Below are positions 7,733 to 44,109 of a stretch of DNA of 64,000 bases, piece after piece. The notes below the pieces were generated by a model, which worked only from the letters and a program-made list of their open reading frames with translations, did not search any database and was not told the DNA's origin. Each line of letters begins with the position of its first letter. Positions within the stretch are counted from its first letter, which is position 1. Made by a program: the position numbers and the translations under genes. The stretch spans positions 1-64,000 of the forward strand of contig NZ_CP084474.1 in NCBI RefSeq assembly GCF_020405225.1. The letters run 5' to 3'. The DNA comes from Natrinema sp. DC36 (GTDB taxonomy: Archaea; Halobacteriota; Halobacteria; Halobacteriales; Natrialbaceae).

Positions 7733-9277
7733 ATGGGACGAAAGGGACGTAGAGCGGGTTCGAATCATCCAGAAGGTGAAAAGGATCGCAAATCCTCCTC
7801 TGCTGCTCCTGATAATCCCGAGTCGATGGGTGAGGAGATAGATTCTCCCGATACGTCACAGTCGACGTTCGAGGATGGCTCGGAACTCGCCGATTCTTCT
7901 CAAGAGGCAACAAACGGTGACGGTGGTGGCATCTCAATCCGGGATCGACTACAAACTGAGTCGTCTGGGGGGGTCTTCGCGAACAAAGACCTCGTTCGGT
8001 CAGATACCATCATCGACGAGGATCGTATCGTCGGTCGTGATGACCAACTGGGCCGTGTCGTCGACAATCTGAAACCCATGCTCCAGAACGAAGGCATCCC
8101 AGATATGCTTCTGAGTGGTCCCTCTGGAACTGGGAAGTCGCTCATCATTCATGCAGTCTGCAAACAGATCGTCGAACTGTGTGAATCCCAAGGCAAGACC
8201 TTCGGGGTCATTTCAATCAACTGCGAGGGGCCGAAGACTGCAGATCGGGCTGTCTATCGGTTAGTTAAAGCTGCTGGCGACGACCTCGGCGTTGATCCTG
8301 GTGTTCCCCAAACCGGAGTCTCAACGGATCAGAAGCTGGAGCGACTGTACGAACTGATGCGCGAGTACTATGACGGTGTCATCTTCATTCTCGATGAAAT
8401 CGATATGCTCGAGGGACCGTATCAGGAAGCAGAGTACAATTCTCTCATCTACCAGCTTTCACGGGCTCGAAAACTCGCCGATTTTGATGGGCCGATCTCA
8501 CTCACGACTATCACGAATTACGCCGATTTTGATGGGCCGATCTCACTCACGACTATCACGAATTACGCCGATTTCATGAAGGACCTCAACAGCCGCGCAC
8601 AGAGTTCTTACAATCCTGATGACATCTTCTTCGATGATTACGATGCGAACCAACTCCGTAGTATTCTCCACAACCGACGAGACGCCTTCAAGCCAGAATC
8701 ACTCGCAGATGACGTCGTTCCGCTTGTTGCCGCGTTCGGATCCCAAACCCATGGTGATGCACGGAAAGCAATTGATCTCCTCAGATGGGCTGGCGAATTA
8801 GCCGAGCGGCGTGGAGCTGACACTGTTATCGAGACTGATGTCCGTGAAGCCCAGGAGAAATACACCGAAAATCGCAAACTACGCCATATTAGCGGGATAT
8901 CCACTCAAAAGAAACTCTCCATCTACGCTGTGGCGGCCACTGCCCACTACGCAAGAGAACATCCTGAGTGGATACCTGCTGGACCTGCGTTCAAGACGTA
9001 CCAATTCATTGCTGATACGATGGATTCGGATCAGTACAGTCGCGAGACGTTCGTAAATCACGTCACAGAGCAGAGTACGTACGGGGTACTGGACTTCGAG
9101 CGTCGAGGCAAGGGGCGAGGCAGAGGGGTGCATATGTATTTCTCCCTCTCCGAGGATCCGGAAACGATCATGGAGACGATTCGTGAGGATTCCCGGTTCG
9201 AAGATCTAGCTCACGAAGAGGCGACTATCAGCGCGGTTGTCCGCGAACGGCTGAAGCAGTTCCAGAGCAAGAACTAA
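7733..9277 (+). CDS. orc1: Orc1/Cdc6 replication initiator of origin 1
   Basis: 514 aa. A Ser/Asp/Glu-rich N-terminal tail of ~65 residues precedes IVGRDDQLGRVV, Walker A GPSGTGKS near residue 128, Walker B VIFILDEIDML near 215, then arginine-rich sensor text, the HGDARKAIDLLRWAGELA lid helix and a C-terminal winged helix. It loads the replicative helicase at its cognate ORBs, which flank the gene on both sides. A perfect 45-bp tandem duplication adds 15 residues (ADFDGPISLTTITNY twice) at the sensor 1 strand just after Walker B. It keeps the frame but doubles a core beta strand, so activity is uncertain. The paralogue of origin 2 lacks the duplication. Confidence 0.93.
   Translation: MGRKGRRAGSNHPEGEKDRKSSSAAPDNPESMGEEIDSPDTSQSTFEDGSELADSSQEATNGDGGGISIRDRLQTESSGGVFANKDLVRSDTIIDEDRIVGRDDQLGRVVDNLKPMLQNEGIPDMLLSGPSGTGKSLIIHAVCKQIVELCESQGKTFGVISINCEGPKTADRAVYRLVKAAGDDLGVDPGVPQTGVSTDQKLERLYELMREYYDGVIFILDEIDMLEGPYQEAEYNSLIYQLSRARKLADFDGPISLTTITNYADFDGPISLTTITNYADFMKDLNSRAQSSYNPDDIFFDDYDANQLRSILHNRRDAFKPESLADDVVPLVAAFGSQTHGDARKAIDLLRWAGELAERRGADTVIETDVREAQEKYTENRKLRHISGISTQKKLSIYAVAATAHYAREHPEWIPAGPAFKTYQFIADTMDSDQYSRETFVNHVTEQSTYGVLDFERRGKGRGRGVHMYFSLSEDPETIMETIREDSRFEDLAHEEATISAVVRERLKQFQSKN
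8476..8565 (+). repeat. 45-bp perfect tandem duplication inside orc1
   Basis: Positions 8476-8520 are repeated exactly at 8521-8565, adding 15 codons in frame. Perfect identity implies a recent event or an assembly artefact. Confidence 0.95.
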
Positions 9278-19628: not shown

Positions 19629-20510
19629 CTATTCCTGGGTCCACCACCGCCCGCGTTCGGGGAACTCGAGGCGACTCCAGCCGGTCACAGCCAGGCTGCA
19701 TCGCTCGTTGTGCCAGTTCTTCGCCGCGTTCCTGATTCGCACCGTCTCTCCCTCGCTCACTGTTGTCTGATAGGAGTTCTCCCAGATCGTGAACTTCATC
19801 TTCTCGGTCGCATCCGCGATCAGTCCAACCTGGCTGATCGACGGCTGCGAGGGCTCCCATAGTTTAATGATCTCGCCTTCCACGTCCACTTCGCCTGCCT
19901 CTACCTCCGGCACATCTGCGATGTCGACGATCGTTCCCGACTCGGCCTTCACTTCGTCCATCTCCTCGAGTGTTGCGTCGATCATCGACGTCCCGTCCGT
20001 CACCTTCTCCGCCAGTCCACGGCTCACTGCCGCCCGGCTTGGACCTCCACGCACCGTCTCCGTGATTCGCACCGATTGTTTGTTGACCTCCGCCAATTGC
20101 TCTTGCTCCAGCTCCGAGCGGGGGTCCACCCGTTCGACCCGCCGCTCTCGGCGCTGCTCGACCACGATCTCTCGCGTCCGCTTCTCTCGCCCCTCCTGCG
20201 TTCCGAACGTCGCCTTTGCGCTGATCAACTCGAGCTCCTCCTCTCGAGCCCGAATCCGCTCTTCCTGTGCCAGTGGCAGGTATCCGAACTCGTTCTCCTC
20301 GCGTCCAACCATCGTCTCCGGGTGGTTCGTCTCGACTTTCGTGTTGATCTCCTGCTCGACCGACGCCTGGAACTCCGGCGTCTCATCCACGATGTCTTCC
20401 GCGAACTCGTCTTCCACCGCCACGCCTGCGTCCGTCTTCTCCGCAGCCGCCTCTTGGTTGACACTCGATCCATCCGAAGTTTTATCATCTCGGAAGTTCG
20501 TAGAACTCAT
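19629..20510 (-). CDS. OB-fold (RPA-like) DNA-binding protein
   Basis: 293 aa. The N-terminal half is acidic and Glu-rich; residues ~205-290 form an OB fold (VDVEGEIIKLWEPSQPSISQ, VGLIADATEKMKFTIW, VRIRNAAKNWHNER), the pattern of archaeal single-strand DNA-binding RPA domains. No zinc finger. Similar stand-alone OB proteins are frequent on haloarchaeal plasmids and may assist replication or repair. Surrounded by GC-rich low-complexity spacers on both sides. Confidence 0.75.
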   Translation of the reverse strand: MSSTNFRDDKTSDGSSVNQEAAAEKTDAGVAVEDEFAEDIVDETPEFQASVEQEINTKVETNHPETMVGREENEFGYLPLAQEERIRAREEELELISAKATFGTQEGREKRTREIVVEQRRERRVERVDPRSELEQEQLAEVNKQSVRITETVRGGPSRAAVSRGLAEKVTDGTSMIDATLEEMDEVKAESGTIVDIADVPEVEAGEVDVEGEIIKLWEPSQPSISQVGLIADATEKMKFTIWENSYQTTVSEGETVRIRNAAKNWHNERCSLAVTGWSRLEFPERGRWWTQE

Positions 20511-22703: not shown

Positions 22704-23225
22704 CTACCTTCTGTACGACTTCCGGATCCAGGATCTCATCAAACTGCTCCATGCTCGCAGCTGTACTTGAATCGCTCGTCGCAGATCCTGCCCCAGCACC
22801 GCCACTTCCGAGTAGTACGATCGCGCACCCCTCGGCAATTCGTGGAACCGTTCCTGACACTCCAGACACGTGTACTCGAACTCAGCTCGGACTCTGTTCT
22901 GGTGCCCCTCGAGCTCGCCCTCCTCGCTGTAGTGGAACTCCTCGTACACGAGCTTTTTCGAAACGAACTCGCGACCGTCACACCGCGGACACTGGTCCAT
23001 CATCAGTGGCTTGTCTGACCCCTGCCTCGAGACAGTACCTGAACTCGTCGATGCAACCCTGTCCTGCTCACCCTCACTATCCTCGGCTGTACTGCCGGCT
23101 TCGTCCACTGTGGTATCAGCTTGGTCTACCTCCGATTCGTCTTCCTCGCCTGGCGCTGTTCCTTCTCGAACCCAGTCGTCGAATTCCTCACTCAGGATCT
23201 GATCATCATCCGCTGCCTCCTCCAC
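22704..23225 (-). CDS. Acidic zinc-ribbon protein
   Basis: 173 aa from a GTG at 23225. The first ~75 residues are Asp/Glu/Ser/Thr-rich; then CPRCDGREFVSKKLVYEEFH and, 35 residues on, CLECQERFHELPRG form a two-CxxC zinc ribbon with a beta core. The C-terminal 20 residues (from RRAIQVQLRAW) look unlike the rest, so the natural end may be displaced by a frameshift. Similar single zinc-ribbon proteins occur on haloarchaeal plasmids; role unknown. Confidence 0.6.
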   Translation of the reverse strand: MEEAADDDQILSEEFDDWVREGTAPGEEDESEVDQADTTVDEAGSTAEDSEGEQDRVASTSSGTVSRQGSDKPLMMDQCPRCDGREFVSKKLVYEEFHYSEEGELEGHQNRVRAEFEYTCLECQERFHELPRGARSYYSEVAVLGQDLRRAIQVQLRAWSSLMRSWIRKSYRR

Positions 23226-23289
23226 CTAGTGTTGGTCAGTCCAGCTCATATCCCGACTCACTCCTCTCAGGTGGGCAAATAACACCGCC

Positions 23290-24060
23290 TCGCGGTCGCC
23301 TAGCCTAATGTCTTCCCTGACACGCTACGTCCACCACCATCGCAATCATCCAATCTCACGTCTCCTCTGCTGCTCTTCACTCACCACTGCCTCGAGCCCA
23401 ATCTCACCGTCGACATCCTCCCCATGGCCTCTATCCTCCCCTCGAGGAGAGCAACCCCCGCTCCACCACCTCTCCCTCCAAGTCCTCTCTCTCCTCGAGC
23501 TTTTCCCCAAACTTCCCGTCACGGCCTGGCTACTAGCTTGTACGTTCCTCCCACTCTCACCTCTCCTCAGCTTCATCTCCAGTTCCCTGCTCCAGTCCTC
23601 TGCCCCACTCCCCTCTCCTCAGATCACCACACTCTACCCTGTTCTCCGCCCTTCACTCGTTCTCCAGACCTCACTCTCTTTTCTCGAGCACCATCCTCTC
23701 TCTACTTCTCCCACCCCTCTTCTTTCTCTATTGGCCCCTCACATTCTGCTCTCTTCTCAACTTTCTTGTATATCTATCACCTTGCTTCACACCTCTCCCT
23801 CACCCACCTCTCTACCGCTCTCCAGTCCCCCACTGATCGTATTCTGAAAATGCTTCTCACTCCTCTCTCATTCTCCTTCCGTCCGCCCCCTTGTTACTGC
23901 CCCTACCTTCCACCTTTCTACACCCAACTCAATCCCACCATTCTCGAGTCATAACACACCTCCTATCTAATTCACTATATCCTGACGTATTTACCTACCC
24001 TGCTCTCTGACTCTCCACGTTTCATTCCCCGTCGCGCACACCTCTATTTCTGCATACCTC
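23290..24060. other. Long polypyrimidine tract, non-coding
   Basis: About 770 bases in which the plus strand is overwhelmingly C and T (runs such as CTCTCCTCAGCTTCATCTCC) and the minus strand is purine-rich. Open frames here are Ser/Pro/Leu low-complexity artefacts. No gene is supported. The strand bias is far beyond that of neighbouring coding sequence. Confidence 0.7.
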
Positions 24061-24120
24061 CCCATTCCTTTGGACGATTTTTCGTCATTCACGACCAGTT
24101 TTGCGGACTCAAATCATTTT

Positions 24121-24355
24121 AAATCCCCGTTGCACATATCTAAGGCCGTAACAACACGCGCAACGAGTGAAAATTTCAAGCACGAAAGTCAAAAAACGCG
24201 CAACGGGGAGTTTCAGCCACCCAACTCAGTCGATTCTGAGTTTCAATGTTCAAATTGAAGAACGGCAGAAGGGACAGTTCGATATCACATTCTTAGAAGA
24301 ATATCCCTTATCTGCTGATTTCTCCATCACGAAGGCTCAGATAATACGCAACGTG
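24121..24355. repeat. GCAACG repeats next to primase genes
   Basis: Forward copies ACGCGCAACGAG (24156-24167), ACGCGCAACGGGGAG (24196-24210) and TACGCAACGTGA (24345-24356), plus an inverted CCCCGTTGC at 24125-24133. CCCCGTTGC and GCAACGGGG can pair across about 65 bases. The segment is AT-rich and lies between the polypyrimidine tract and the 3' end of the primase operon. Iteron-like; function inferred only from context. Confidence 0.5.
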
Positions 24356-24508: not shown

Positions 24509-26044
24509 CTAAACGGGGTCGGTTTCCTCGAGTTGGTCGTACATATCGTCGGGGAATGGAAGGCTACCATAAATTGAGTAGGGGCACTGCTCTTTGCCAA
24601 TACAGTACCGTTGCATATCGTCATTATTACAATTCATTGGCAGGGGTGTGTTCCCGTCGGGGCCAATTCCACGATCGCCCCGTCGGGCTTCGTACTTGAT
24701 CTGGTAGGCAGAGATCTCTGGATCAAACCATGGCCACCGGCTGAACAGGTCTTTGAGTTCATCGGTGATCGCGTCGACGGATTTCTCGCGGTACTGCGGG
24801 AGCCACATTACCATCCGAACGAGGTTGAAGAGGTCTTTTCGGACCGGTTTCTCCTCTTGGAGTCGCTCATCCATCGCAGCAAGACAAGGCAGTTCAAACA
24901 GGTCTTCGAGTTCCGTAATCTCGAGTGGCCGCGATCCACCGCCCGAGTGGCCGATCCGATACGTATTGACGCGGTCACCCCGATCGACTGTCACCGATCG
25001 ATGCGATAAGTGATCTGCAAGCGAGTTCCCTACACTTCGGGGGGTCGACAATTGTGTGAGCTGGGCTCGTTCACTCTCGTTTTCTGGCTCATATACTTCA
25101 AGAGCATCGGACAACTCCTGAGCAGTATGAAACTCACCGATCTGAGTGTGTGGTGATGCTTGCACAGCATTTCGGAGTAGTCGGACGATCTGCTCGCCTT
25201 GATCCCAGTTTTTCCACACCTTCTCGTAGTGGCCGATCTCGAGGGCGTAGTCAGTCCGCTCGGTGATGGCAGTTTCGTGCTCTCGAAGCCACTTGCGTTG
25301 TGGCTCGCCGAGTTCATCCTCTTGGACTGCCTGTAGCCGGCCAAAACACCGCTTGCCGTACGATCGATAAGTGTCATGGAGGTGGTCGAGTGGGACGTAG
25401 AGATGATTGTCCTTGACCTGCGTTCGAATCTCGCCCGTTTCGTCGGCACTCGTCGCTTCGGTGGATGCTCGAGCGAGACACTTTCGAGAGGCAGCCGCCA
25501 TTGGGATCTCGACGTAGAGATCGTACTCGGTATCGGCAGTCACCTCCTCGTCGAATTCGGGCATCGGTTTGACGTCCGTACAAACGCGACCCGGGTGGGG
25601 ACCGTCCTGACTGGGGCCTTTCGCGTAGAGGACCTCAGCCATCTCTTGGTAGAGCGTTGGATCGTCGTACTCATGCACAAGTGCGAGGAGGTTAGTCGCG
25701 AACAGTTCGCGGATGTTGTGAAGGACTTGGTTCTGCCGAGGCGGCGTGTCCTCGAAGCGAGGTTGTTCGCTCACGCAGATTGAACTGAGAGTAGCCAGCA
25801 AAACGAGCGTTGCGGGCTCGTCGACGAATGGGTACTCGAGCGGACGGTTACGCTTGGAACTCTTGAACGCAGCAGTCCCGAACTGTTCGATATCCGAAAG
25901 CAGCGTCTCTCGGTCTGGCGTATTATCGACGACGTAGCGGTCGTACCCGCGGGTGAACAATTGAACGATCTCTCTGTCAGTGTAGTTGATAGGGATCGCT
26001 GCAGCGAGGTAGGCGTCTCGCTCGGTCTCTCGTGGATCAATCAT
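24509..26044 (-). CDS. Primase large-subunit-like (PriL-type) protein
   Basis: 511 aa from ATG 26044, which overlaps the stop of the small-subunit gene by 8 bases; a frame extending to 26131 is rejected because it would overlap far more. The C-terminal third has CLAAMDERLQ, then CNNDDMQRYCIGKEQCPYSI, a spaced Cys set like the 4Fe-4S ligands of PriL, with the CPYSIYG context. The rest is helical. It probably works with the PriS-like protein to prime plasmid or transferred DNA. It is much longer than chromosomal PriL, so a plasmid-type variant. Confidence 0.7.
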   Translation of the reverse strand: MIDPRETERDAYLAAAIPINYTDREIVQLFTRGYDRYVVDNTPDRETLLSDIEQFGTAAFKSSKRNRPLEYPFVDEPATLVLLATLSSICVSEQPRFEDTPPRQNQVLHNIRELFATNLLALVHEYDDPTLYQEMAEVLYAKGPSQDGPHPGRVCTDVKPMPEFDEEVTADTEYDLYVEIPMAAASRKCLARASTEATSADETGEIRTQVKDNHLYVPLDHLHDTYRSYGKRCFGRLQAVQEDELGEPQRKWLREHETAITERTDYALEIGHYEKVWKNWDQGEQIVRLLRNAVQASPHTQIGEFHTAQELSDALEVYEPENESERAQLTQLSTPRSVGNSLADHLSHRSVTVDRGDRVNTYRIGHSGGGSRPLEITELEDLFELPCLAAMDERLQEEKPVRKDLFNLVRMVMWLPQYREKSVDAITDELKDLFSRWPWFDPEISAYQIKYEARRGDRGIGPDGNTPLPMNCNNDDMQRYCIGKEQCPYSIYGSLPFPDDMYDQLEETDPV

Positions 26045-26963
26045 GGGTAAGTTCACGCTCGGTTTCAAGGAACTGTGGTCGGGCTTCCGTTCGGGGATCG
26101 AACGCTGGGCTCTCGATCGGCTGGACGACACGGCAGACCTCTGCGTGCAACGAGTAGGGCACGCGAAGGAGACGGCTTCGGTCGGCAGTCACAACGGGAT
26201 CGATCGGGATCTCATAACGCTCGAGCAAGAGATCGTTGAGCACTTCTCGGCTTTTCTCGTCATACCCGTACTCAAGCTCGTTGTCGAGCAGATAGACGTG
26301 GACGCCTTGACCGGAATAGACGACCATCGTCTTCTCGGCAGCAAATACATCCATGAAGAGGTCTCGTGTTTCGAAGCCGTACTCGATCGCACGGTCGATG
26401 TCCTCGAACGAGTAGGGATACCCCCTCGGATCGGCGTCACAAATCTCGAATTCGGCGAGCAACGCGTCGTCACGACTCACATCTGTTGATTGGATCTCGA
26501 GGTCATTCTCGTCAAGTTCGCGTTCAGCGCGTGCTGTGGCGATGCCTTTCGCATCGATATCGACCGCGAGAACCCACGATCGGTCCCAGTTGTCCAACCC
26601 GTAGTAGACGCCATCCGAAATCGGATCACTCTTCTCGAGCAGATCGGGATCAGCCAAGGCGTATTCACTCCCCTGGAACGGGTCGTACCGTGCGGGAGAT
26701 TGGATGAACGAGACGAGTTCTTCGACGTTGCTGAAGTTCTGTGCAATCGGCTCGCCATCTGAGTCAGTGCGCCACGTCGGCCGTCGAATGAAGTCGCGAT
26801 CGGGGCGCTCCGCTTTGCGGATGGGATGGCGCTCGCGGAAGCTGATCCCGAACTCTTTCGGTGCCGTTGGTGTGATGAACGGCGGCAACTGGTCTACATA
26901 CTCGGGGAACTCCTCGGTATAGTACGCATAGACCTCGCCACGGGTTGCCTGTCGCCAAGTCAT
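26037..26963 (-). CDS. Primase small-subunit-like (PriS-type) protein
   Basis: 308 aa. WVLAVDIDAKG supplies the paired Asp of the archaeo-eukaryotic primase fold; VVYSGQGVHVYLLD matches the SGxGxH motif; VTADRSRLLRVPYSLHAEVC matches the D...RLxRxPxSLH motif of PriS and PrimPol. Catalyses RNA or DNA primer synthesis. Coupled to the PriL-like gene and 57 bases downstream of the coupling ATPase gene, so primer synthesis is probably co-expressed with DNA transfer. Confidence 0.82.
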   Translation of the reverse strand: MTWRQATRGEVYAYYTEEFPEYVDQLPPFITPTAPKEFGISFRERHPIRKAERPDRDFIRRPTWRTDSDGEPIAQNFSNVEELVSFIQSPARYDPFQGSEYALADPDLLEKSDPISDGVYYGLDNWDRSWVLAVDIDAKGIATARAERELDENDLEIQSTDVSRDDALLAEFEICDADPRGYPYSFEDIDRAIEYGFETRDLFMDVFAAEKTMVVYSGQGVHVYLLDNELEYGYDEKSREVLNDLLLERYEIPIDPVVTADRSRLLRVPYSLHAEVCRVVQPIESPAFDPRTEARPQFLETERELTHD

Positions 26964-27020: not shown

Positions 27021-30000
27021 TTAGGTCAGCTTCCTGAAGGTGTGGATAGTCGCCATTCCATCGGCTTCGAATCCTTCGACTGCCTCCTGGAGACGTGAAA
27101 ATGAGTTAGCTGTTCGACCACTCACATTCTCAGGAAGACGTTCTGCATCGGCGAGCACATTCACGATCTCGCCAGCGTCGTCACGTGACGGGAACGCCCA
27201 CACGGCATCCGCGTCGACCGCAGCCATCTTCTCGTAATCACTCACAACTGCCTCCACGTTATTTGAGGTCATCTCCACTTCTCCAACCCACACAAGTTCA
27301 TCATCAACGTCGAACGCGGCAGCGTCGAAAATCGTCTCCGAGGACTGCTGATAGTATCGCTCCACTCGATCGACCTCCTCGAGAGTCTCAAGCCAGCGCA
27401 CCAGGAGTTCGACCCCAACTTTGTGTGGCGTCTTCTCTCCAAGATCTCCAATCCCCGGTTGGGCGGTGATTGTCTCGCCGAGAAGCTCTCGTCCATCCGG
27501 AAGCACCGTATAATACGGTCGTCGGTCCACCTTCCCTTTCTCGAGCAGCCCGAGTTCGATCAACACGTCGACGTCAACCCCATCAAGATCCTCTTGTAAT
27601 TCGCCCATCCCTTCCAACAGCGTGTACTCCGGGAGGTCACGGTTCATCGCGTCAAGAACACGTTTGAGGAAGATCGCGTCGTCTCGAGAGAGCCCCCGCC
27701 GCCGAAGTTCATCGTCCGAGACTGGGCATTCCTCTTCGCCCGTGGACGAATCGAAGAAGGCGGCTCCGTTTGCAACGTCAACTGGATCGTCGTCGGTAGT
27801 CTCTGCTTTACTGCTATCGTCTCGATCATCGTACTGATCGTCGCCCCCATCGTCAAGGCTGGTCTTCTCGAGCGCCTGCTGGGCTTCTATGACCTCACTC
27901 TCTTCGTTGGACTCCACTATCTCTGCACTCTCATCTTCGTCCAGCGCCGGCGGCGCACCAGCCCGCCGATCTGTATCGCTCCAATTTGACCACTCCATCG
28001 CGTCCTCGTGGGTCGGTACGTATAACCCGTACTCGTCCTCAGTCCGCTCGAGCACCTCCGGCAGAAGCTCTTCGTCGAATTGCTGCTGTTCGACCGCCGT
28101 CAACGGCTCGTCGCTTTCTGGATGCCCGCTTATGATCGGGGGCGAGTGCAGAGTCAACGGCGCTGGTCGCTCCTCACCGAACCCAGGGGAGACGAGTTTC
28201 GTGAACCACTCGCCCGCTGCCATCCGGTTGTTCCGGTTCCTGACATCCTCCACAGATAACTCGTCGTGCGTGAACGTCTTCGCGAACCGGTTCTTCATCG
28301 AGATGTCACCAATCAGTTTCGTATGCACCTCTGTCAGCAGTTCCTCGTACGCACCGTTCCCATTGTGGAACTTCTTGACCTGCTCGGGATACTGCATGAT
28401 GAAGCCGAGGCTCAGTCCCGACGATCGGCCCTGGGGGAGCAGTTGATCGGCGACCAGTTCGGTCGCGACGAACGGTGCAGCCTCTTCCATGATGACGTTG
28501 ACCACGTTCTCGGGGTTCGTCCGCCGCCGTCGCTGGATCGAGTGCCACAGATTACTCAATAAGACTGTGGTGAACCCGCGCTGGGCGGGTAACGACAGGT
28601 CACCCAGGTCGAACAGGATCGTGACATCTTCCTCGAGGAACTCACTGAAGTCGAAATGGGTCTCCTGCTGGTGGAAGCCGTAGAGATCGTCTCCGGTGGA
28701 TTCGACTTCGCGACCGGGTTTGTGTCGAAGCATCCAGTGAAGGTGGCGATCCTCTTTCAGTTTGTTCAGCCGGTTCATCACCGCCCCCATCGTCGTGTCG
28801 AACTGGTTCTCGTCCTTGGCGAACTGGGCGGCGAGTGAGTCGTGGATGTCGGCATTGATCTCCGAAACCTCCGGCAGCTCCTGATGACGATGCATTCTCG
28901 TCGCGGCCCCGACGAGATCATCCAACCCGAAGACGTCGTCACCGTGTTTCGGATCGAACAACGCTTGGATCAGGAACGTCAGAATTTCGTTCGCCACGAA
29001 CGCCTGTTCGTACTTCTCCGCTCCCATGATCATCCGCATCAGCTCGTGGAAGTGGTCGGCTTTCTCCTTGACTGCCGTCTCGCGATCGTTCCCCTCGAGC
29101 GCTGGCCGAATATCGAAGAACGAGATGGCAGGAAGCGTCTCCGGTACGCGAAAGTGGTACACGTCGTCGAGGTGCCCGAATTTCTTGTAGTGGGCCATCA
29201 GGTAGTTTTGACACATGTTGTCGCCTTTCGGGTCGAAGAGGACGTTCGGCCCTGGTGTCGTCTCGGCGAGCGAGCGCAACATGTGGTACGTAACTTGGCT
29301 CTTCCCGCTCCCAGTCGCGCCACAGAGCAACCAGTGGCGTGTTTGCCGGCTCGGCGGTAACCGAAGCGGCCCCTCGACGGCACTGTTGGCGTCCTGACCG
29401 AGGACCATTCCCGTGGTGTACTGGCGGCGTTGGGCGGTATCCAACCCGGGAAGAGCCGTGCGGCTTTCGGGATTCGCATGCGTCTCTTTGACTGCTTCAT
29501 CAGTCAAATGCTCGGTACTGGGAACGATCACCAGATTGCAGAGCTCGCCGGGATCGAGATGCAGGTCGGGTTTGGATCGACTCACCCGCCCACCAGCGAC
29601 GACCTCACCATCGAGAAACCGATCAAAACAGCGTCGTGACCGCTTGCGCCGACTGCGCTCAAGAACTCCTTTCTCGTAGAGGGTTTCGCTCTCGAGTTTG
29701 TAGTAGTCACCGGCAAGCGGATCGAACACGGTACTCAGATTCCGTAGGCCGTGTTCGATTTCGGACGTGTCGCTCAGAGACGAGTTCGTGGGGACAGTCA
29801 CTACCCGCAGGTTGGTCGTGAACGTATGGCCCCAGTCTTCGTTTTTGATCTCGGTAATGCGCTCAGATCGGGATTCACTGAGTGACTCTGACCGCGACGA
29901 GGACGACTCGTTATTCTTTGGACCGCGTAGAAGCTCTTCAAGGGCTATGGTGGCTTCACCCCACAGCGTCTCGCGACCCTGTTCGATTTCGTCAATGTGG

Positions 30001-31565
30001 TATTCACCCTCTTTCGTTAGATCGGGCTCGCCTTCGAACGCAGCCTGGAAGACGATTGGATGATTCGTGCTTGCAAAATGATCGATTAGCACGGTCAACG
30101 GCGCGTGTGAGCTCGCCTTCGACCGATCAGTTTCTCCCATTTTCTGATCGAATTTCTTGATTGCCGCCAACGGGTCTCCGCTGCCGGTCCACCGCAGTCC
30201 GTACGGTTCAACTTCATCTGGATGTGGCCGGGCAAGTACCCCCTCACCAGTGTCAACTGGCGTCTCGAGGGCGAACGTGAGCGACCCTGGATCGCGGTTT
30301 TCTGCCTTCTCTTTCGCACGGAGTGCATCGAGGTCGATGCTCGGGAGTTGCGTGCCGAGTAGGAGACTGGAATCGGAGCTGGGAGGAGAATAAGACTCAG
30401 AATCGGAAGCCTCGGAATCAGACGCCTCCGTACTGGTGTTCTCTTCGGTAGTCTTGTCTCGATCGACCTGCTCACCGATGGTCGTAGCTCCTCCGTCAGC
30501 AAGCGTCGGTTTGGAGCCCCGGACACGAACGAGTGCCTCGACTTCAGCCGGTGTACACTGGAGAGTGCCGTTCTCGAGGGCGGTTTCGAACTCGTCGTAC
30601 GAGTACTGCTGTGGAGTGATGAGCTTCTCCGCAAAGTCAACAGTCACACGCTCGATTTCCACGGAGTCGGGATAGGCCGAGTTGAGTCGATCGTAGAGCG
30701 TGGACAGGTGTTGCTCGCAGGTGTAGTAAAATTCGATCGGAGAGTCCGTCCCGTCGCTGTAGATTACAAACTCGAACGTAAGCGGGTCGGGATCCGAAAG
30801 CGGGTTGAGTGTCTGCCACCACGGCACCCCACCTCGTCGGACGTCGTGCAAGGGACGGATCTGGTTGATAACTTCCCGTGGCGGTCGCTCGCCCGTCGAC
30901 GGCACAACTCGGATGTACTCTTGTTTACGCTCAAGTGGCGAGGCAGCGGAGGCTTCGAGTTCGAGAACAGTCTCATGAAGCTCTGTTGGGTCCTCAATCG
31001 CCCAACACTGGATTTCGGGCGACGTATGGTCGAACGTACTGAACGTGACGGTTCCATACGACAACAGCCGGCCGATGGAGGACTGATGAAAAGTGGTGTC
31101 GACGACACGGTCGAGCGGGAGTTTCGTGAACCCATCGCCACGAATTCCCCGCGTGCGGACATAGAGTTTCTCCGAGGTGAGGACGTAGGTGGTACGAAGC
31201 GCCCGAACAATCGGACGCACACTGATCGCGATGCCTATCAGGCCAACCAGGAACGGAATAGCACTCAGCCACCACAGTGGGATTTCGATACTAGTTCCCT
31301 CCACCGCGAGCGTGTAGGACTCGAGCCCGACGAGCGACGGTCCTGTTGTGACCCCGGCGATGCTCTCCGTCGCAAGAGCAAGCGCGACCGCTATGAAGAC
31401 GAGTGCGACCAGAAATGTCCGAGATCCGCCTCGAAACAGTGGCATACCAGTCCACTGCACGTCCAGGTCGGAGATCTGCTCCACTTGCTCGTCCTCTGTC
31501 ACGATCCATTCAAGGGATTCAGCGTCGACGTTGGGGTTACTCTCGGTTATCTCAGTCGTCTGCAT
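27021..31565 (-). CDS. VirD4/TraG-type coupling ATPase with PH-like N-terminus
   Basis: 1514 aa. Residues ~48-125 hold two membrane helices (TFLVALVFIAVALALA; AIPFLVGLIGIAISV) followed by a bacterial PH-like segment (YVLTSEKLYVRTRGIRGDGF, KLPLDRVVDTTFHQSSIG). Walker A GATGSGKSQ lies near residue 748, then PNVLFDPKGDN and the hexameric ATPase core with FLIQALFDP and VNVIMEEAAPFV. The C-terminal ~200 residues add a winged-helix-like part and a segment FDAAAFDVDDELVWVGEVEM resembling a PD-(D/E)xK core, though the usual final Lys is Glu. Coupling proteins hand DNA to the secretion channel. Overlaps the VirB4 gene by 14 bases. Confidence 0.82.
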   Translation of the reverse strand: MQTTEITESNPNVDAESLEWIVTEDEQVEQISDLDVQWTGMPLFRGGSRTFLVALVFIAVALALATESIAGVTTGPSLVGLESYTLAVEGTSIEIPLWWLSAIPFLVGLIGIAISVRPIVRALRTTYVLTSEKLYVRTRGIRGDGFTKLPLDRVVDTTFHQSSIGRLLSYGTVTFSTFDHTSPEIQCWAIEDPTELHETVLELEASAASPLERKQEYIRVVPSTGERPPREVINQIRPLHDVRRGGVPWWQTLNPLSDPDPLTFEFVIYSDGTDSPIEFYYTCEQHLSTLYDRLNSAYPDSVEIERVTVDFAEKLITPQQYSYDEFETALENGTLQCTPAEVEALVRVRGSKPTLADGGATTIGEQVDRDKTTEENTSTEASDSEASDSESYSPPSSDSSLLLGTQLPSIDLDALRAKEKAENRDPGSLTFALETPVDTGEGVLARPHPDEVEPYGLRWTGSGDPLAAIKKFDQKMGETDRSKASSHAPLTVLIDHFASTNHPIVFQAAFEGEPDLTKEGEYHIDEIEQGRETLWGEATIALEELLRGPKNNESSSSRSESLSESRSERITEIKNEDWGHTFTTNLRVVTVPTNSSLSDTSEIEHGLRNLSTVFDPLAGDYYKLESETLYEKGVLERSRRKRSRRCFDRFLDGEVVAGGRVSRSKPDLHLDPGELCNLVIVPSTEHLTDEAVKETHANPESRTALPGLDTAQRRQYTTGMVLGQDANSAVEGPLRLPPSRQTRHWLLCGATGSGKSQVTYHMLRSLAETTPGPNVLFDPKGDNMCQNYLMAHYKKFGHLDDVYHFRVPETLPAISFFDIRPALEGNDRETAVKEKADHFHELMRMIMGAEKYEQAFVANEILTFLIQALFDPKHGDDVFGLDDLVGAATRMHRHQELPEVSEINADIHDSLAAQFAKDENQFDTTMGAVMNRLNKLKEDRHLHWMLRHKPGREVESTGDDLYGFHQQETHFDFSEFLEEDVTILFDLGDLSLPAQRGFTTVLLSNLWHSIQRRRRTNPENVVNVIMEEAAPFVATELVADQLLPQGRSSGLSLGFIMQYPEQVKKFHNGNGAYEELLTEVHTKLIGDISMKNRFAKTFTHDELSVEDVRNRNNRMAAGEWFTKLVSPGFGEERPAPLTLHSPPIISGHPESDEPLTAVEQQQFDEELLPEVLERTEDEYGLYVPTHEDAMEWSNWSDTDRRAGAPPALDEDESAEIVESNEESEVIEAQQALEKTSLDDGGDDQYDDRDDSSKAETTDDDPVDVANGAAFFDSSTGEEECPVSDDELRRRGLSRDDAIFLKRVLDAMNRDLPEYTLLEGMGELQEDLDGVDVDVLIELGLLEKGKVDRRPYYTVLPDGRELLGETITAQPGIGDLGEKTPHKVGVELLVRWLETLEEVDRVERYYQQSSETIFDAAAFDVDDELVWVGEVEMTSNNVEAVVSDYEKMAAVDADAVWAFPSRDDAGEIVNVLADAERLPENVSGRTANSFSRLQEAVEGFEADGMATIHTFRKLT

Positions 31566-34209
31566 CGGTTGTCACCTCCGTAGTCGGGGAGGATTCCCCA
31601 CTCGCGGTCTCCGGTTCACAGATCGAGCTAGCAGCATCGACCCACTCGTCAAGCAACGTGTGCGGGATCGACATCTTCTCTGAAAGTGACTCGGTATCTG
31701 CCACAGCGAGCTCGCCAACCGTCTCGACACCCGCTTCGGCGAGATACCCTGCGTACGTCTCGCCGATTCCAGTGATCGTGGTGAGATCGTCTTCTTGATC
31801 CGCTGTGGCTTCAGCACGAGAATCCTCCGCTCTCTTCTCATGCGGTTCCCCTGGTCCCTCATCTACAGCTGCTGTCGCTCCTTGGCCGGCCTCAGCAATC
31901 TCACTAATGTCTCTTTCGTAATATTCGGTCTTCACATCGGCTCGCTCTTGATCGGCGTGCTCGACGACCGCCTCGTCGGTCTCAGACTCCTTATCAATCT
32001 CATCCAGATCCGCCTCCTCAAGCAACGACTCCGGAATTTTATAGTCCTCGAGTCGGTCCTCTACGGCAAGGAATCTGGCGTCATCGGCGTCGATATACCG
32101 GTTCTCAGCGAGATACTCCCACGGATCGAGATCATCATCGAGGACGCTGACTTCGTAGTCGTTCACGTGGAGTGCGAGTGGTTTCGACCACTCATTGACA
32201 CCCAACAAAAACTCCGAGTAGCCCCCGTCTTCGCCAGTCTGGGCCGTCGTAAGGAACGTTTGCTCGGAAGGGGTGAGGTCGTGGAAGTCGACCATCTCGT
32301 CGCTGACCGACTCGTGGTGAAAAATTTGCTTGATATCACAGAGATTGTATACGTTGCGCGCTTTCTCGGCGGCCTCCTTGGACTGGCCGTCCGACTGGGC
32401 GACGAACTCATCGACAGTCTGGGAGATAAGCGTGATTGCCGTGTTGAAATGACGACTGTGCCGGATGAACAGATCGATCATATCTGTCGTCGCCTCCCGC
32501 CGCAACAGGTAGTGAGCCTCGTCGATCGTCACCTGCGTCCGGCGGTCGTGATCGCTGGCCGCTCGCTGGTAGATCCAGTCGAACATCACGTGCATAAACA
32601 GTGGTGCCTGCCCCGTGTCAGCAAACATCGACATGTCGATGACGACTAAACGGTTGTCGAGTTCGACGTTCGTCCGGCCGGTCAGATTGTCGTTCTCGCC
32701 GCCCTTCTGGAACGCCTCGAGACCAAGCAATAATTGGTAAGCGTACTGCTCGTCGCCATCCCGAAATCGTGTCTCGAGCTGGTCAATCTCGGGCCACACT
32801 CGCTCGTCGTTCGCATCCTCGTGGAGTTCCAGGAATTCCGATGGCAGGCCACCGTCGGCGATTTCCGCGAGGATGTCAAGGAGGTCCTTGATCGTCGGGC
32901 TCGTGTTCTCGTGGGTCACTGTCTCTTCCGTGATACCGTATTGGAGGTAGGCAAGTCGGACCGCTCGCCGCAGAATTCCCTCTTGTTCCTTGCTTAACGA
33001 CTGCTCGGTCACCGCCGAGAAATGGATGCGAAACAGCTCCATCACCGAGCGCAATTTCTTCTTAAATGGATCGTCCACAGCGTCGTCGATGCCCCGCTGG
33101 ATCTCAAGCGGATTGACTGTGTTATCGCCGCCGAAGCGGATCACTTGCCCACCAAGATCATTCGCGAAGTCGACGAAGTCTCCAAGCGGATCGAGAACCA
33201 GCATCTCGATCTCGGGGTCCATCATCAACCGATGGTACATCTCGTGTTTCTCGGCGAACGTTTTTCCGGAACCCATTGTACCGGCGATTGCTTTCGAGTA
33301 CGAGGAGAGCTCGTATCTGTCGAGGATTACGGGTGTGTCCGTCGTATCAAACCCATAGAAGATTCCCTCGGGATCGGTAATCACCGGCTCAATGAACGGA
33401 AACATCGTGCCGATGGCGGTCTCCTGCATCAACTGGGTCGACTTGATCGGATCGTCACCAAGGGGGCCAAGCGCATCCTGTGATTCGACTTGCCGTTTCT
33501 CGAGGGGGACTGCTTCCGCGTTCGCGGTACTGAGTGAATCAACGACGCGTTCGGTTGCCTCGTTGAGCTCCTGTTCGGTGTCGGCAACCACTTCGATGTA
33601 AATCGCGAAGTCGAACAGCTTCGTTTCCCCGAGGATGATATCCCAGATGAGATCCTGGACCATGTCGCGGTCGGCCTCCTCCTCGTGGGTGTCGGTCTGG
33701 CTCTTCTTGTGTTTCTTGTGGAGGCGAGCCCGTAACTGGGTGAGGCGTTTCTGCAACTTACGGAGGACGGAGCCGGTATCGCGTGGCTGGATGTGTTGAG
33801 TGACCCGAACGTGATCGTTCGTCGTATACAGTTCATCGAGCCAGCCCAAGGGGACGCGTTCGGGGTAGCCGTGAATCGTCAACGTACGGACGAACTTGTC
33901 GTTACGGATCATGTACCCCGATTCGAAGAAGTTGGAGACCTCTTTCAGCTTTCGTGGGGCGATGATATCTCGGTCGGCGAGCGACTGCTCGGTGTCGTCT
34001 TGGATGACACCCAATCGGAACTCCCCTTCGTCGACCTCCTCGAGTTCGAGGAGATGCTCGGCTTGCTCGCGGATGTTTTCCTTGGTAAGGTCGTCGCCGT
34101 TAGCCTCGAGGATCGCTGCTGCCCGGTCGAACGTCTCGTCATCGATCTCCTTGAGCGTGTGCTTATTGCCCGAAGTAAGACGAGAACGAAGTCCTGAAAG
34201 GAAGCCCAT
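31552..34209 (-). CDS. VirB4/TraC-type secretion ATPase
   Basis: 885 aa. Walker A GTMGSGKTFAEKHEMYH near residue 311, LVLDPLGDFVDFAND, VNPLEI, then VTIDEAHYLLRREATTDMID (Walker B) near 563 and SQTVDEFV, as in VirB4. The C-terminal tail has TITGIGETYAGYLAEAGVET, a helix-hairpin-helix DNA-binding motif unusual for VirB4. It energises assembly of the conjugation channel. Its start overlaps the stop of the preceding gene by one base (TGATG). Confidence 0.88.
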   Translation of the reverse strand: MGFLSGLRSRLTSGNKHTLKEIDDETFDRAAAILEANGDDLTKENIREQAEHLLELEEVDEGEFRLGVIQDDTEQSLADRDIIAPRKLKEVSNFFESGYMIRNDKFVRTLTIHGYPERVPLGWLDELYTTNDHVRVTQHIQPRDTGSVLRKLQKRLTQLRARLHKKHKKSQTDTHEEEADRDMVQDLIWDIILGETKLFDFAIYIEVVADTEQELNEATERVVDSLSTANAEAVPLEKRQVESQDALGPLGDDPIKSTQLMQETAIGTMFPFIEPVITDPEGIFYGFDTTDTPVILDRYELSSYSKAIAGTMGSGKTFAEKHEMYHRLMMDPEIEMLVLDPLGDFVDFANDLGGQVIRFGGDNTVNPLEIQRGIDDAVDDPFKKKLRSVMELFRIHFSAVTEQSLSKEQEGILRRAVRLAYLQYGITEETVTHENTSPTIKDLLDILAEIADGGLPSEFLELHEDANDERVWPEIDQLETRFRDGDEQYAYQLLLGLEAFQKGGENDNLTGRTNVELDNRLVVIDMSMFADTGQAPLFMHVMFDWIYQRAASDHDRRTQVTIDEAHYLLRREATTDMIDLFIRHSRHFNTAITLISQTVDEFVAQSDGQSKEAAEKARNVYNLCDIKQIFHHESVSDEMVDFHDLTPSEQTFLTTAQTGEDGGYSEFLLGVNEWSKPLALHVNDYEVSVLDDDLDPWEYLAENRYIDADDARFLAVEDRLEDYKIPESLLEEADLDEIDKESETDEAVVEHADQERADVKTEYYERDISEIAEAGQGATAAVDEGPGEPHEKRAEDSRAEATADQEDDLTTITGIGETYAGYLAEAGVETVGELAVADTESLSEKMSIPHTLLDEWVDAASSICEPETASGESSPTTEVTTDADD

Positions 34210-42372: not shown

Positions 42373-43833
42373 TCACTGATTATGGAACTTCTTTAACTGT
42401 GAGTTGATGACAGTTCGGAGGAGATCTTCTTGATCGGAAACTGCTTCCATTCGAGTATCATCGACAATTCGGTTCATCATTGCTGCGGGATCTCCTGTGA
42501 AGGTGAACTCCATGTACATTCCGCCACCACGTCCTCGACTCTTCCGGGAGGACGAGATCAGACCATAGGTGGAGAGTTCTTTGACATACTTGACGTATGT
42601 CTCGCGGGTCATCTGGTCAGCATCTATCTCTTCGGTAATCCATTGATAGACCTTGAATCCAACTGGACTTGGAACGGAACTCCCTGACCAATTCGAGAAA
42701 TGCGCAACAGAGGCTGTCGCGTAAAGTGAGATCTTTTTTTGGGTCGTCAGTCCCTCCACAAGTTTTAATGACCGATCCTTGTCAATTTCCTCCTGGGATT
42801 CGCGGACATGGTCTTCGCGAACCTTCTCGTCACCACGTTCATCCGCGAGATCACCGGCACCGCGAAACAAATCAATTGCTTTTCGTGCGTCCCCATGACT
42901 CTGTGCTGCAAATGCCGATACGAGGGGTAATACGTCGTCAGTTAATGCATCAGACCGAAAGGCATCACGACGATTTTCGAGTATCTGGCGTAATTGATTT
43001 GCGTCATAATCTGGGAAATAGACATCTCGCGGATTAAATGAACTCTCGGCACGACCGTCGATGTCCTCCATAAACTTCGGGTCATTCGTCAGTGCAGCAA
43101 CTGATACCTGCCCTTCGATTTCGTTTGTATTACTCGCTCGTGACAGCTGGTAGAGTAGTTTTGAATAGGCAGGTTCGTCCTTTGCTCGCCGGCCGACCAA
43201 GAGGTCAATCTCGTCGAGGATAAAAATGACCGAGTCATAGTGTTCGTTGATAAGTTTATACAGTCGTCGATATTTATGCTTCGTCGATACGCCCGTTTCA
43301 GGTACGCCGATCTTCGTGTCGACATCCTTCGCAACGGTCTGGACGAGTTCGAAGACTGCTTGGTCGAGGGTGTTGATCGGCTGGCAGTTGATATCAACTA
43401 CACCGAAGCGTTTGCCCTTCGATTGACAGAGCTCGATAATTTGTTGTGTGACTGCCCCGATGATGAGTGATTTCCCTGTCCCAGCAGGACCGTATAACAG
43501 CATATTCGGGGGGCGATTTCCTTGGAGTGTCGGTTTCAGAAATGAGACAACAGATTCAAGTTGATCGTCACGACCGACGATTCGCTCCTCATCGATGATT
43601 GTGTCTGGCTCGACAAGGTCTCGATTGACGAAGACTGATGTCTCCCCCTCATCGTCGAGCATGTCCCGGATCGATCGCTGAGTACTGTCTTCAGTAGTTA
43701 CTTTATCTTGGTCCGGCACCGTGTCTCCGACAACTTCTTCATGAGCAGTTTCTATTTGTTCTTCGTCAACTCTAGAATGCGTTCCTTCACCAAGAAGAGA
43801 TTGATCCGTCCCGTCTTGATCACTACCGGTCAT
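42373..43833 (-). CDS. orc1: Orc1/Cdc6 replication initiator of origin 2
   Basis: 486 aa from ATG 43833; an AT-rich TATA-like stretch (TTTTTAACG) lies about 25 bases upstream, favouring this start over one 36 bases earlier. Walker A GPAGTGKSL, Walker B VIFILDEIDLLVG, the HGDARKAIDLFRGAGDLADE lid and a C-terminal winged helix (YGLISSSRKSRGRGGGMYME). It is a close paralogue of the origin 1 protein; the sensor 1 region reads ASNTNEIEGQVSVAALTNDP with no duplication. Boxes of a distinct ORB family flank it on both sides, so it probably initiates at its own origin. Confidence 0.93.
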   Translation of the reverse strand: MTGSDQDGTDQSLLGEGTHSRVDEEQIETAHEEVVGDTVPDQDKVTTEDSTQRSIRDMLDDEGETSVFVNRDLVEPDTIIDEERIVGRDDQLESVVSFLKPTLQGNRPPNMLLYGPAGTGKSLIIGAVTQQIIELCQSKGKRFGVVDINCQPINTLDQAVFELVQTVAKDVDTKIGVPETGVSTKHKYRRLYKLINEHYDSVIFILDEIDLLVGRRAKDEPAYSKLLYQLSRASNTNEIEGQVSVAALTNDPKFMEDIDGRAESSFNPRDVYFPDYDANQLRQILENRRDAFRSDALTDDVLPLVSAFAAQSHGDARKAIDLFRGAGDLADERGDEKVREDHVRESQEEIDKDRSLKLVEGLTTQKKISLYATASVAHFSNWSGSSVPSPVGFKVYQWITEEIDADQMTRETYVKYVKELSTYGLISSSRKSRGRGGGMYMEFTFTGDPAAMMNRIVDDTRMEAVSDQEDLLRTVINSQLKKFHNQ

Positions 43834-43867
43834 ACGCTTAGTGTACGCCGGAGCGTTAAAAAGATTC

Positions 43868-44109
43868 ACCCCCGTCGATGTTTATTCGGGCAATATAACT
43901 AACCTATCCCCGTAATATCCGGTTTCACGCTCTCTGTGATAGAACCGTCTCCGAAGTACATTTGATAAGAGGCCCCCCGCCATCGATGTGTAATGAGGTT
44001 CGCCTCAACTTCGTGCGAATCTGAGTGTCTGTTCTTCGACACGGTCTCCGTCTCCCCCGTCATCGAAGTGTAAGCTATACGTCTGACACCCCGGCATCGA
44101 AGTGTAAAC
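43868..44109. repeat. Origin 2, ORBs upstream of second orc1
   Basis: Reverse-oriented boxes at 43868-43884 (degenerate), 43973-43993, 44054-44073 and 44087-44109: CCCCC(G/C)(T/C)CATCGA(T/A)GTGTAA. All point their C-tracts the same way. The nearest one overlaps the promoter region of orc1. Confidence 0.82.

Follow-up and report, generated by a model that had tools for sequence, protein, structure and literature searches.

We describe a conserved element of approximately 125 nt that lies behind the transfer operon of a 334-kb haloarchaeal replicon (Natrinema sp. DC36) and at which a long, purine-rich, non-coding tract begins. The element's position, orientation, conservation, spread and retention on replicons without the operon can be read from the sequences compared, as can the strand skew of the tract and the reduced folding that accompanies it. 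From these we infer roles in transfer initiation and in holding a strand open: in archaeal conjugation that works without a relaxase, the element may be the oriT-like site where transfer starts, and the tract may form a single-strand zone free of folds along its leading edge. We put the chances of this reading at about even. Throughout, the window is the whole 64,000-nt stretch of DNA that was analysed (contig NZ_CP084474.1, positions 1 to 64,000).

A Purine-Rich Tract Unique on Its Replicon

On the plus strand, positions 23290-24060 contain 343 C, 229 T, 124 A and 75 G (74.2% pyrimidine). The densest segment, 23455-24071, is 617 nt long and 77% pyrimidine; the runner-up within the window has 41 nt. 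The initial annotation had called this strand nearly all C/T. It is indeed pyrimidine-rich, but at 74-77% the description is overstated: the longest unbroken pyrimidine run is 16 nt, longer runs are present elsewhere in the window, and the base class is interrupted every few bases. On the minus strand G and A are each enriched and C and T each depleted, and the tract has 13 runs of at least four G on that strand. The tract and the parts of the neighbouring element are as follows (group A is defined below).

23325..24080, minus strand: purine-rich strand of the non-coding tract (pyrimidine-rich on plus), delimited by skew and by breakpoints in relatives
24027..24149, minus strand: conserved element, candidate oriT-like site (match to model R1, 78.7 bits), overlapping the first approximately 55 nt of the tract
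24066..24077, minus strand: core motif TCGTCCAAAGGA, in which CCAAAG is invariant across 32 aligned sequences
24073..24086, minus strand: small hairpin GACGA-AAAA-TCGTC, overlapping the core motif
24118..24123, minus strand: TTTAAA, a candidate TATA box from which a leftward transcript may start; only group A sequences, and most of these, show it here
24128..24133, minus strand: inverted copy of the upstream repeats (GCAACG on minus), within the box GCnCnACGGG
24160..24165, minus strand: direct repeat CGTTGC (GCAACG on plus), counterpart of GTCGAGC repeats in other groups
24200..24205, minus strand: direct repeat CGTTGC (GCAACG on plus)
24348..24353, minus strand: direct repeat CGTTGC (GCAACG on plus)

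The onset of the tract is abrupt and falls exactly at the conserved element, while its left edge is a module boundary near 23325, where DNA has been gained or lost among relatives. The skew computed along the replicon, a check proposed with the initial annotation, leaves the tract as the single outstanding segment. The top pyrimidine segment of the 334,334-bp contig (23057-24090) scores 151.6 and the second 34.7; the maximum segment score in 20 simulated Markov-1 sequences is 20.5. In a sample of the chromosome and second plasmid (400 kb of the 5.1-Mb genome), the top score is 93.5 and the next 48.9. The purine segment scoring 93.5 (G000:C2:52977-53442, locus L290) is coding sequence, with Glu/Gly-rich repeats of the type MVEEGGEETAEMVEESG.

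Could the tract be translated? Most indels between relatives are of a single base and nearly all are not multiples of three, which marks the tract as non-coding and rules out a protein-coding reading; open reading frames can be drawn in it mechanically, but the earlier statement that it holds no gene stands. We also considered a long 5' leader of the neighbouring hypothetical gene. This is unlikely, since pHTUR03 and a Natrialba locus (L013) have extra DNA between gene and tract, and since the gene is present without the tract on other replicons. We conclude that the tract is real, that it does not code for protein, and that the 334-kb replicon has no other like it.

We propose that a strand made mostly of one base class would hardly fold on itself and would therefore stay open. 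Treated as single-stranded DNA, the 756-nt tract has a predicted folding energy of -30.1 kcal/mol (purine strand) or -17.2 kcal/mol (pyrimidine strand), compared with -117 +/- 10 kcal/mol for GC-matched control windows (60 strands), the least stable of which reaches -97 kcal/mol.

A Conserved Element at the Onset of the Tract

The alignments give the element a common plan: upstream direct repeats, the inverted box GCnCnACGGG, a TTTGAGnCCGTTA-like box and the core. The GCAACG repeats that had been seen beside the tract are the copies at 24160, 24200 and 24348, with the inverted copy at 24128. As in an oriT, a short conserved site thus carries repeats and an inverted repeat near a core motif.

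The small hairpin varies among relatives. At one locus (L004) there is an A-T to G-C change on both arms; at two others (L002 and L016) the AAAA/TTTT loop is inverted compared with close relatives, as if flipped by strand switching. A different hairpin, with the core motif in its loop, reaches significance in 15 of 40 sequences but fails to do so in the window (p = 0.94), and is not upheld as a universal feature.

Genes around the Element

The minus-strand order is VirB4-like ATPase, coupling protein, PriS-like primase, primase-associated protein (PAP), approximately 0.4 kb with the GCAACG repeats, and the tract. Beyond the tract come, on the same strand, a hypothetical protein and, 3.5 kb on, an SSB-like OB-fold protein. 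The initial annotation was right to place primase genes here, as both the PriS-like primase and PAP genes adjoin.

31552..34209, minus strand: VirB4-like/HerA ATPase
27021..31565, minus strand: TrwB/TraD-like coupling ATPase with bacterial PH domain, 1514 aa
26037..26963, minus strand: PriS-like DNA primase
24509..26131, minus strand: PAP (NF038197); annotated relatives start near 26044
22704..23225, minus strand: hypothetical protein adjoining the tract, which also occurs without a tract
19629..20510, minus strand: SSB-like OB-fold protein; groups A, B and D keep it on the downstream side of the element
42373..43869, minus strand: Orc1/Cdc6, likely the vegetative initiator of the replicon
7733..9277, plus strand: second Orc1/Cdc6

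The genes keep their order and orientation in relatives whose proteins are as little as 42-63% identical (26% for VirB4), among them pJ7-1 and a Halobacterium salinarum plasmid. In pNRC100, PAP, the element and the SSB-like gene stand in the same order; at this locus (L120, 15863-21612) an arsenic-resistance gene block sits between PAP and the element. The element adjoins the transfer operon, as an oriT would, and neither a cognate relaxase nor any other nicking enzyme was found among the window proteins scanned. A DUF7845 initiator had no match in the subset of window ORFs scanned. The nearest orc1/cdc6 genes are approximately 15 and 18 kb from the element, which, judged on gene distance, is not placed like an Orc1/Cdc6 origin.

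The window copy of the hypothetical gene on the tract side (22704-23256 region) carries a TAG codon in frame, close to its start. The pHTUR02 copy has one TAG, and other relatives are intact (185-186 aa). Other haloarchaeal genera commonly have a relative of approximately 190 aa, with no tract.

What kind of protein is PAP? Its C-terminus aligns with haloarchaeal PriL (hhalign, E 0.0015, all four Cys aligned) at a probability of only 17%, and a divergent PAP matches PF04104 (PriL family) at E 2.3e-4, below the cut-off. The AF2 model of PAP is poor (pLDDT 57), and this low-confidence model had no significant match in the PDB. The alignments are suggestive of a resemblance between the PAP C-terminus and the PriL Fe-S domain, and PAP and PriS look like a possible plasmid-borne PriL/PriS pair.

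Distribution of the Element among Haloarchaea

We searched 382 genomes for the core pattern TCGTCCAAAGGA, with the reversed pattern as control. The pattern occurs in 13 genomes (14 sites listed, two of which look like chance, judged by context) and the reversed control at two sites. With at most two mismatches, the core is also found 377-400 nt behind PAP in part of the PAP loci that have no tract.

Model R1 is a sequence-only model built from 32 sequences, mostly PAP-linked sites. At E <= 0.01 it matches 102 of 391 haloarchaeal genomes, and the element is found in 45 of the 86 haloarchaeal genera sampled. The stricter threshold of E < 1e-5 leaves 139 sites, distributed over 98 genomes. Of these strong-element genomes, 87 are among the 99 genomes with PAP (both counts are assumed to be drawn from the same 391 genomes), leaving 11 genomes with the element and no PAP and 12 with PAP and no element; part of this association exists by construction, since R1 was built mostly from PAP-linked sites. 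A contig with PAP carries 108 of the 139 strong sites, 106 of the 108 on the same strand as PAP and 101 downstream of it. The distances from PAP to the element cluster at 300-326 nt.

The other 31 strong sites are on contigs without PAP. Among 23 such loci read, no neighbouring gene recurs, and several have Orc1/Cdc6 nearby. The PAP-less contigs include some of 13-14 kb, in genomes where PAP is found elsewhere, and a 52.9-kb plasmid that coexists with a PAP plasmid. PAP has also left remnants: 18 C-terminal fragments compared with five others, a count made after excluding two entries (G087, G381) that are the rest of a gene already listed. This C-terminal excess may come partly from easier detection of the C-terminus. 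Twelve of the 18 lie at most 10 kb upstream of an element (two such elements have E near 0.005). The PAP-less sites and the remnants fit a cis site that would work in trans and outlive its operon.

Several contigs carry more than one element. G321:C2 has six copies (54-71 bits) together with whole and partial PAP genes and looks like a plasmid mosaic. On a contig of 13,180 bp (G407:C15, L209) there are two copies without PAP or T4SS genes. Another, of 14,028 bp (G156:C2, L210), likewise without PAP or T4SS genes, has the element immediately after an ORF of 1058 aa that contains a P-loop ATPase motif and looks ATPase/replicase-like. In PLSDB, the commoner form of the element is on 47 plasmid records and the window form on five. 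A search of IMG/VR with PAP gave no relatives there; the motif pattern hit nine contigs, six of which had R1 matches, all partial.

The Tract across Lineages

A distant blastn search gave seven plasmid records, five of them with the tract, and a family-level search matched some part of the query in 14 of 125 genomes. In more distant relatives the tract cannot be aligned, yet its skew, strand and place are kept. Similar tracts scattered through the genome would have spoken against a role; instead, the tract is at the same place in relatives and has no second copy on the replicon.

We grouped loci by how closely their PAP matches that of the window, with identities of about 84-100% in A, 63-71% in B, 48-51% in C and 52-56% in D. 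Tract length is graded, from approximately 750 nt in close relatives through 400-600 nt in the next group and approximately 200 nt in the third to none in the large fourth. In successive 200-nt bins after the core, the purine fraction is 0.69-0.73, 0.76-0.81, 0.69-0.80 and 0.55-0.69 in group A (11 loci, including L165, a second copy without an intact element) and 0.75-0.78, 0.69-0.78, 0.61-0.71 and 0.57-0.64 in group B (five loci). Group C (eight loci) has 0.65-0.72 in the first 200 nt and 0.46-0.58 thereafter; group D (16 loci) has 0.49-0.58 after the core. Purine skew on the same strand is present at 16 of 16 loci of groups A and B, eight of eight of group C (first 200 nt) and none of 16 of group D. 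Folding is intermediate in B and C, and D folds like coding DNA. Per-site changes from pyrimidine to purine (0.33) exceed the reverse (0.13), with polarity assigned by majority and sites that are not independent.

In an unrooted tree of 50 PAP sequences, the group D sequences form a clade of their own (support 0.97), separate from the other three groups; a single gain or loss therefore explains the tract. The purine tract may be an addition in one plasmid branch. Since group D has the element, no tract and strong folding behind the motif, an open strand is not a general need.

Proposed Transfer Initiation and Its Alternatives

The initial annotation had suggested replication, transfer or termination; the neighbourhood was right, and of these transfer is the best supported. 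The element would be where transfer begins, as an oriT equivalent, and proteins encoded by the operon would recognise it, in trans as well. The purine strand, in the direction from the element to the SSB gene, would be the first to pass into the recipient, and the tract would keep its first several hundred bases single-stranded and open. Such an open strand would serve the coupling protein, the SSB and the plasmid's own PriS/PriL-like primase. Counted against transfer initiation are the relaxase not found, the absence of the tract from the largest group (D), the limited occurrence of the motif-in-loop hairpin (significant in 15 of 40 only), the element-only and PAP-only genomes, and the contigs with several elements.

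What else could account for this arrangement? A leftward transcript might start just before the tract, its purine RNA holding the pyrimidine template and priming synthesis or keeping the region open. The tract is oriented as this would require, with a non-template strand rich in G and A; a TTTAAA lies approximately 30-45 nt upstream of the tract onset, and conservation is among the highest in the first part of the tract. However, the TTTAAA is not seen at that place in the elements of groups C and D, which do retain the motif, and an Rfam search gave nothing above threshold, with one sub-threshold match (E 0.68); we consider an R-loop or long non-coding RNA unlikely. We also doubt that the element loads a primase for vegetative or lagging-strand replication, with the pyrimidine strand as template for purine-starting primers. 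The likeness of PAP/PriS to a PriL/PriS pair, the element's position directly behind both genes, and the small contig with the element behind the ATPase/replicase-like ORF would all suit such an origin, as would the plan of Rep-Arvir origins, an inverted repeat and stem-loop behind the initiator gene (available part of PMC13107129). But the replicon already has two Orc1/Cdc6 genes, which count in favour of transfer because ordinary replication is otherwise provided for; the primase pair belongs to the transfer operon across genera, and in most loci read the PAP-less elements have no primase neighbour.

The skew itself might be non-adaptive, if repeated single-strand exposure or transcription biased mutation toward purines on one strand; it does begin at the putative processing site, and in groups A and B it weakens farther from that site. 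If an exposed strand were deaminated, a gain of G and T would be expected, or a loss of C with a gain of T. The joint rise of G and A and fall of C and T differ from this expectation, and group D has the element without the skew, making such a bias improbable. An H-DNA/triplex or G-quadruplex switch is far-fetched. Triplex structure had been suggested initially, and the purine/pyrimidine asymmetry and the G runs would suit a switch of this kind, but no mirror repeats (arms >= 10, loops <= 8) and no canonical G4 motif were found in the frequently interrupted tract. The missing mirror repeats make triplex DNA unlikely, and we reject both structures on sequence.

Comparison with Known Systems

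In bacterial systems such as F and R388, oriT with its leading region is a cis site at the end of the transfer genes, with repeats and a hairpin. An SSB-like gene lies on the far side, and the site also occurs on replicons without transfer genes. Our element shares all of these features. Unlike those systems, the window has no relaxase that we found, has a primase pair and a purine tract, and is known here from sequence. Retroviral polypurine tracts and eukaryotic R-loop switch regions also have a purine-rich non-template strand; the window tract is much less pure and adjoins a plasmid transfer operon.

Among archaea, the rolling-circle origins of the Rep-Arvir type (betapleolipoviruses and archaeal plasmids) have a conserved inverted repeat and stem-loop behind the initiator (PMC13107129, in the part available). 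They share with our element a haloarchaeal inverted repeat and stem-loop downstream of a gene; unlike them, the window gave no DUF7845 match among the ORFs scanned, and the operon is different. Archaeal conjugative plasmids without recognisable relaxases are described in the available part of PMC9905601. The Ced/Ted import systems and the Sulfolobales conjugative plasmids resemble the window in VirB4-type transfer without a recognisable relaxase; they differ in plasmid type and class, and the available text names no oriT-like site for archaea (PMC9905601).

Implications

No relaxase homologue is recognised for archaeal DNA transfer (PMC9905601, available part), and in the portions of the open-access literature consulted we found no description of the element or the tract. 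We suggest, tentatively and at somewhat less than an even chance, that the element is the first origin of transfer to be recognised in archaeal conjugation: an oriT equivalent without a relaxase, served by a PriS/PriL-like primase pair of the plasmid, present in approximately half of the genera sampled, borrowed by small plasmids without the machinery, and equipped in one branch with a fold-free purine entry ramp. The presence of the approximately 125-nt element on named plasmids of cultured haloarchaea (pNRC100, pJ7-1) makes the way archaea start DNA transfer accessible to a simple mobilisation assay, and the graded purine tract provides a ready-made series for seeing if transfer is limited by strand folding.
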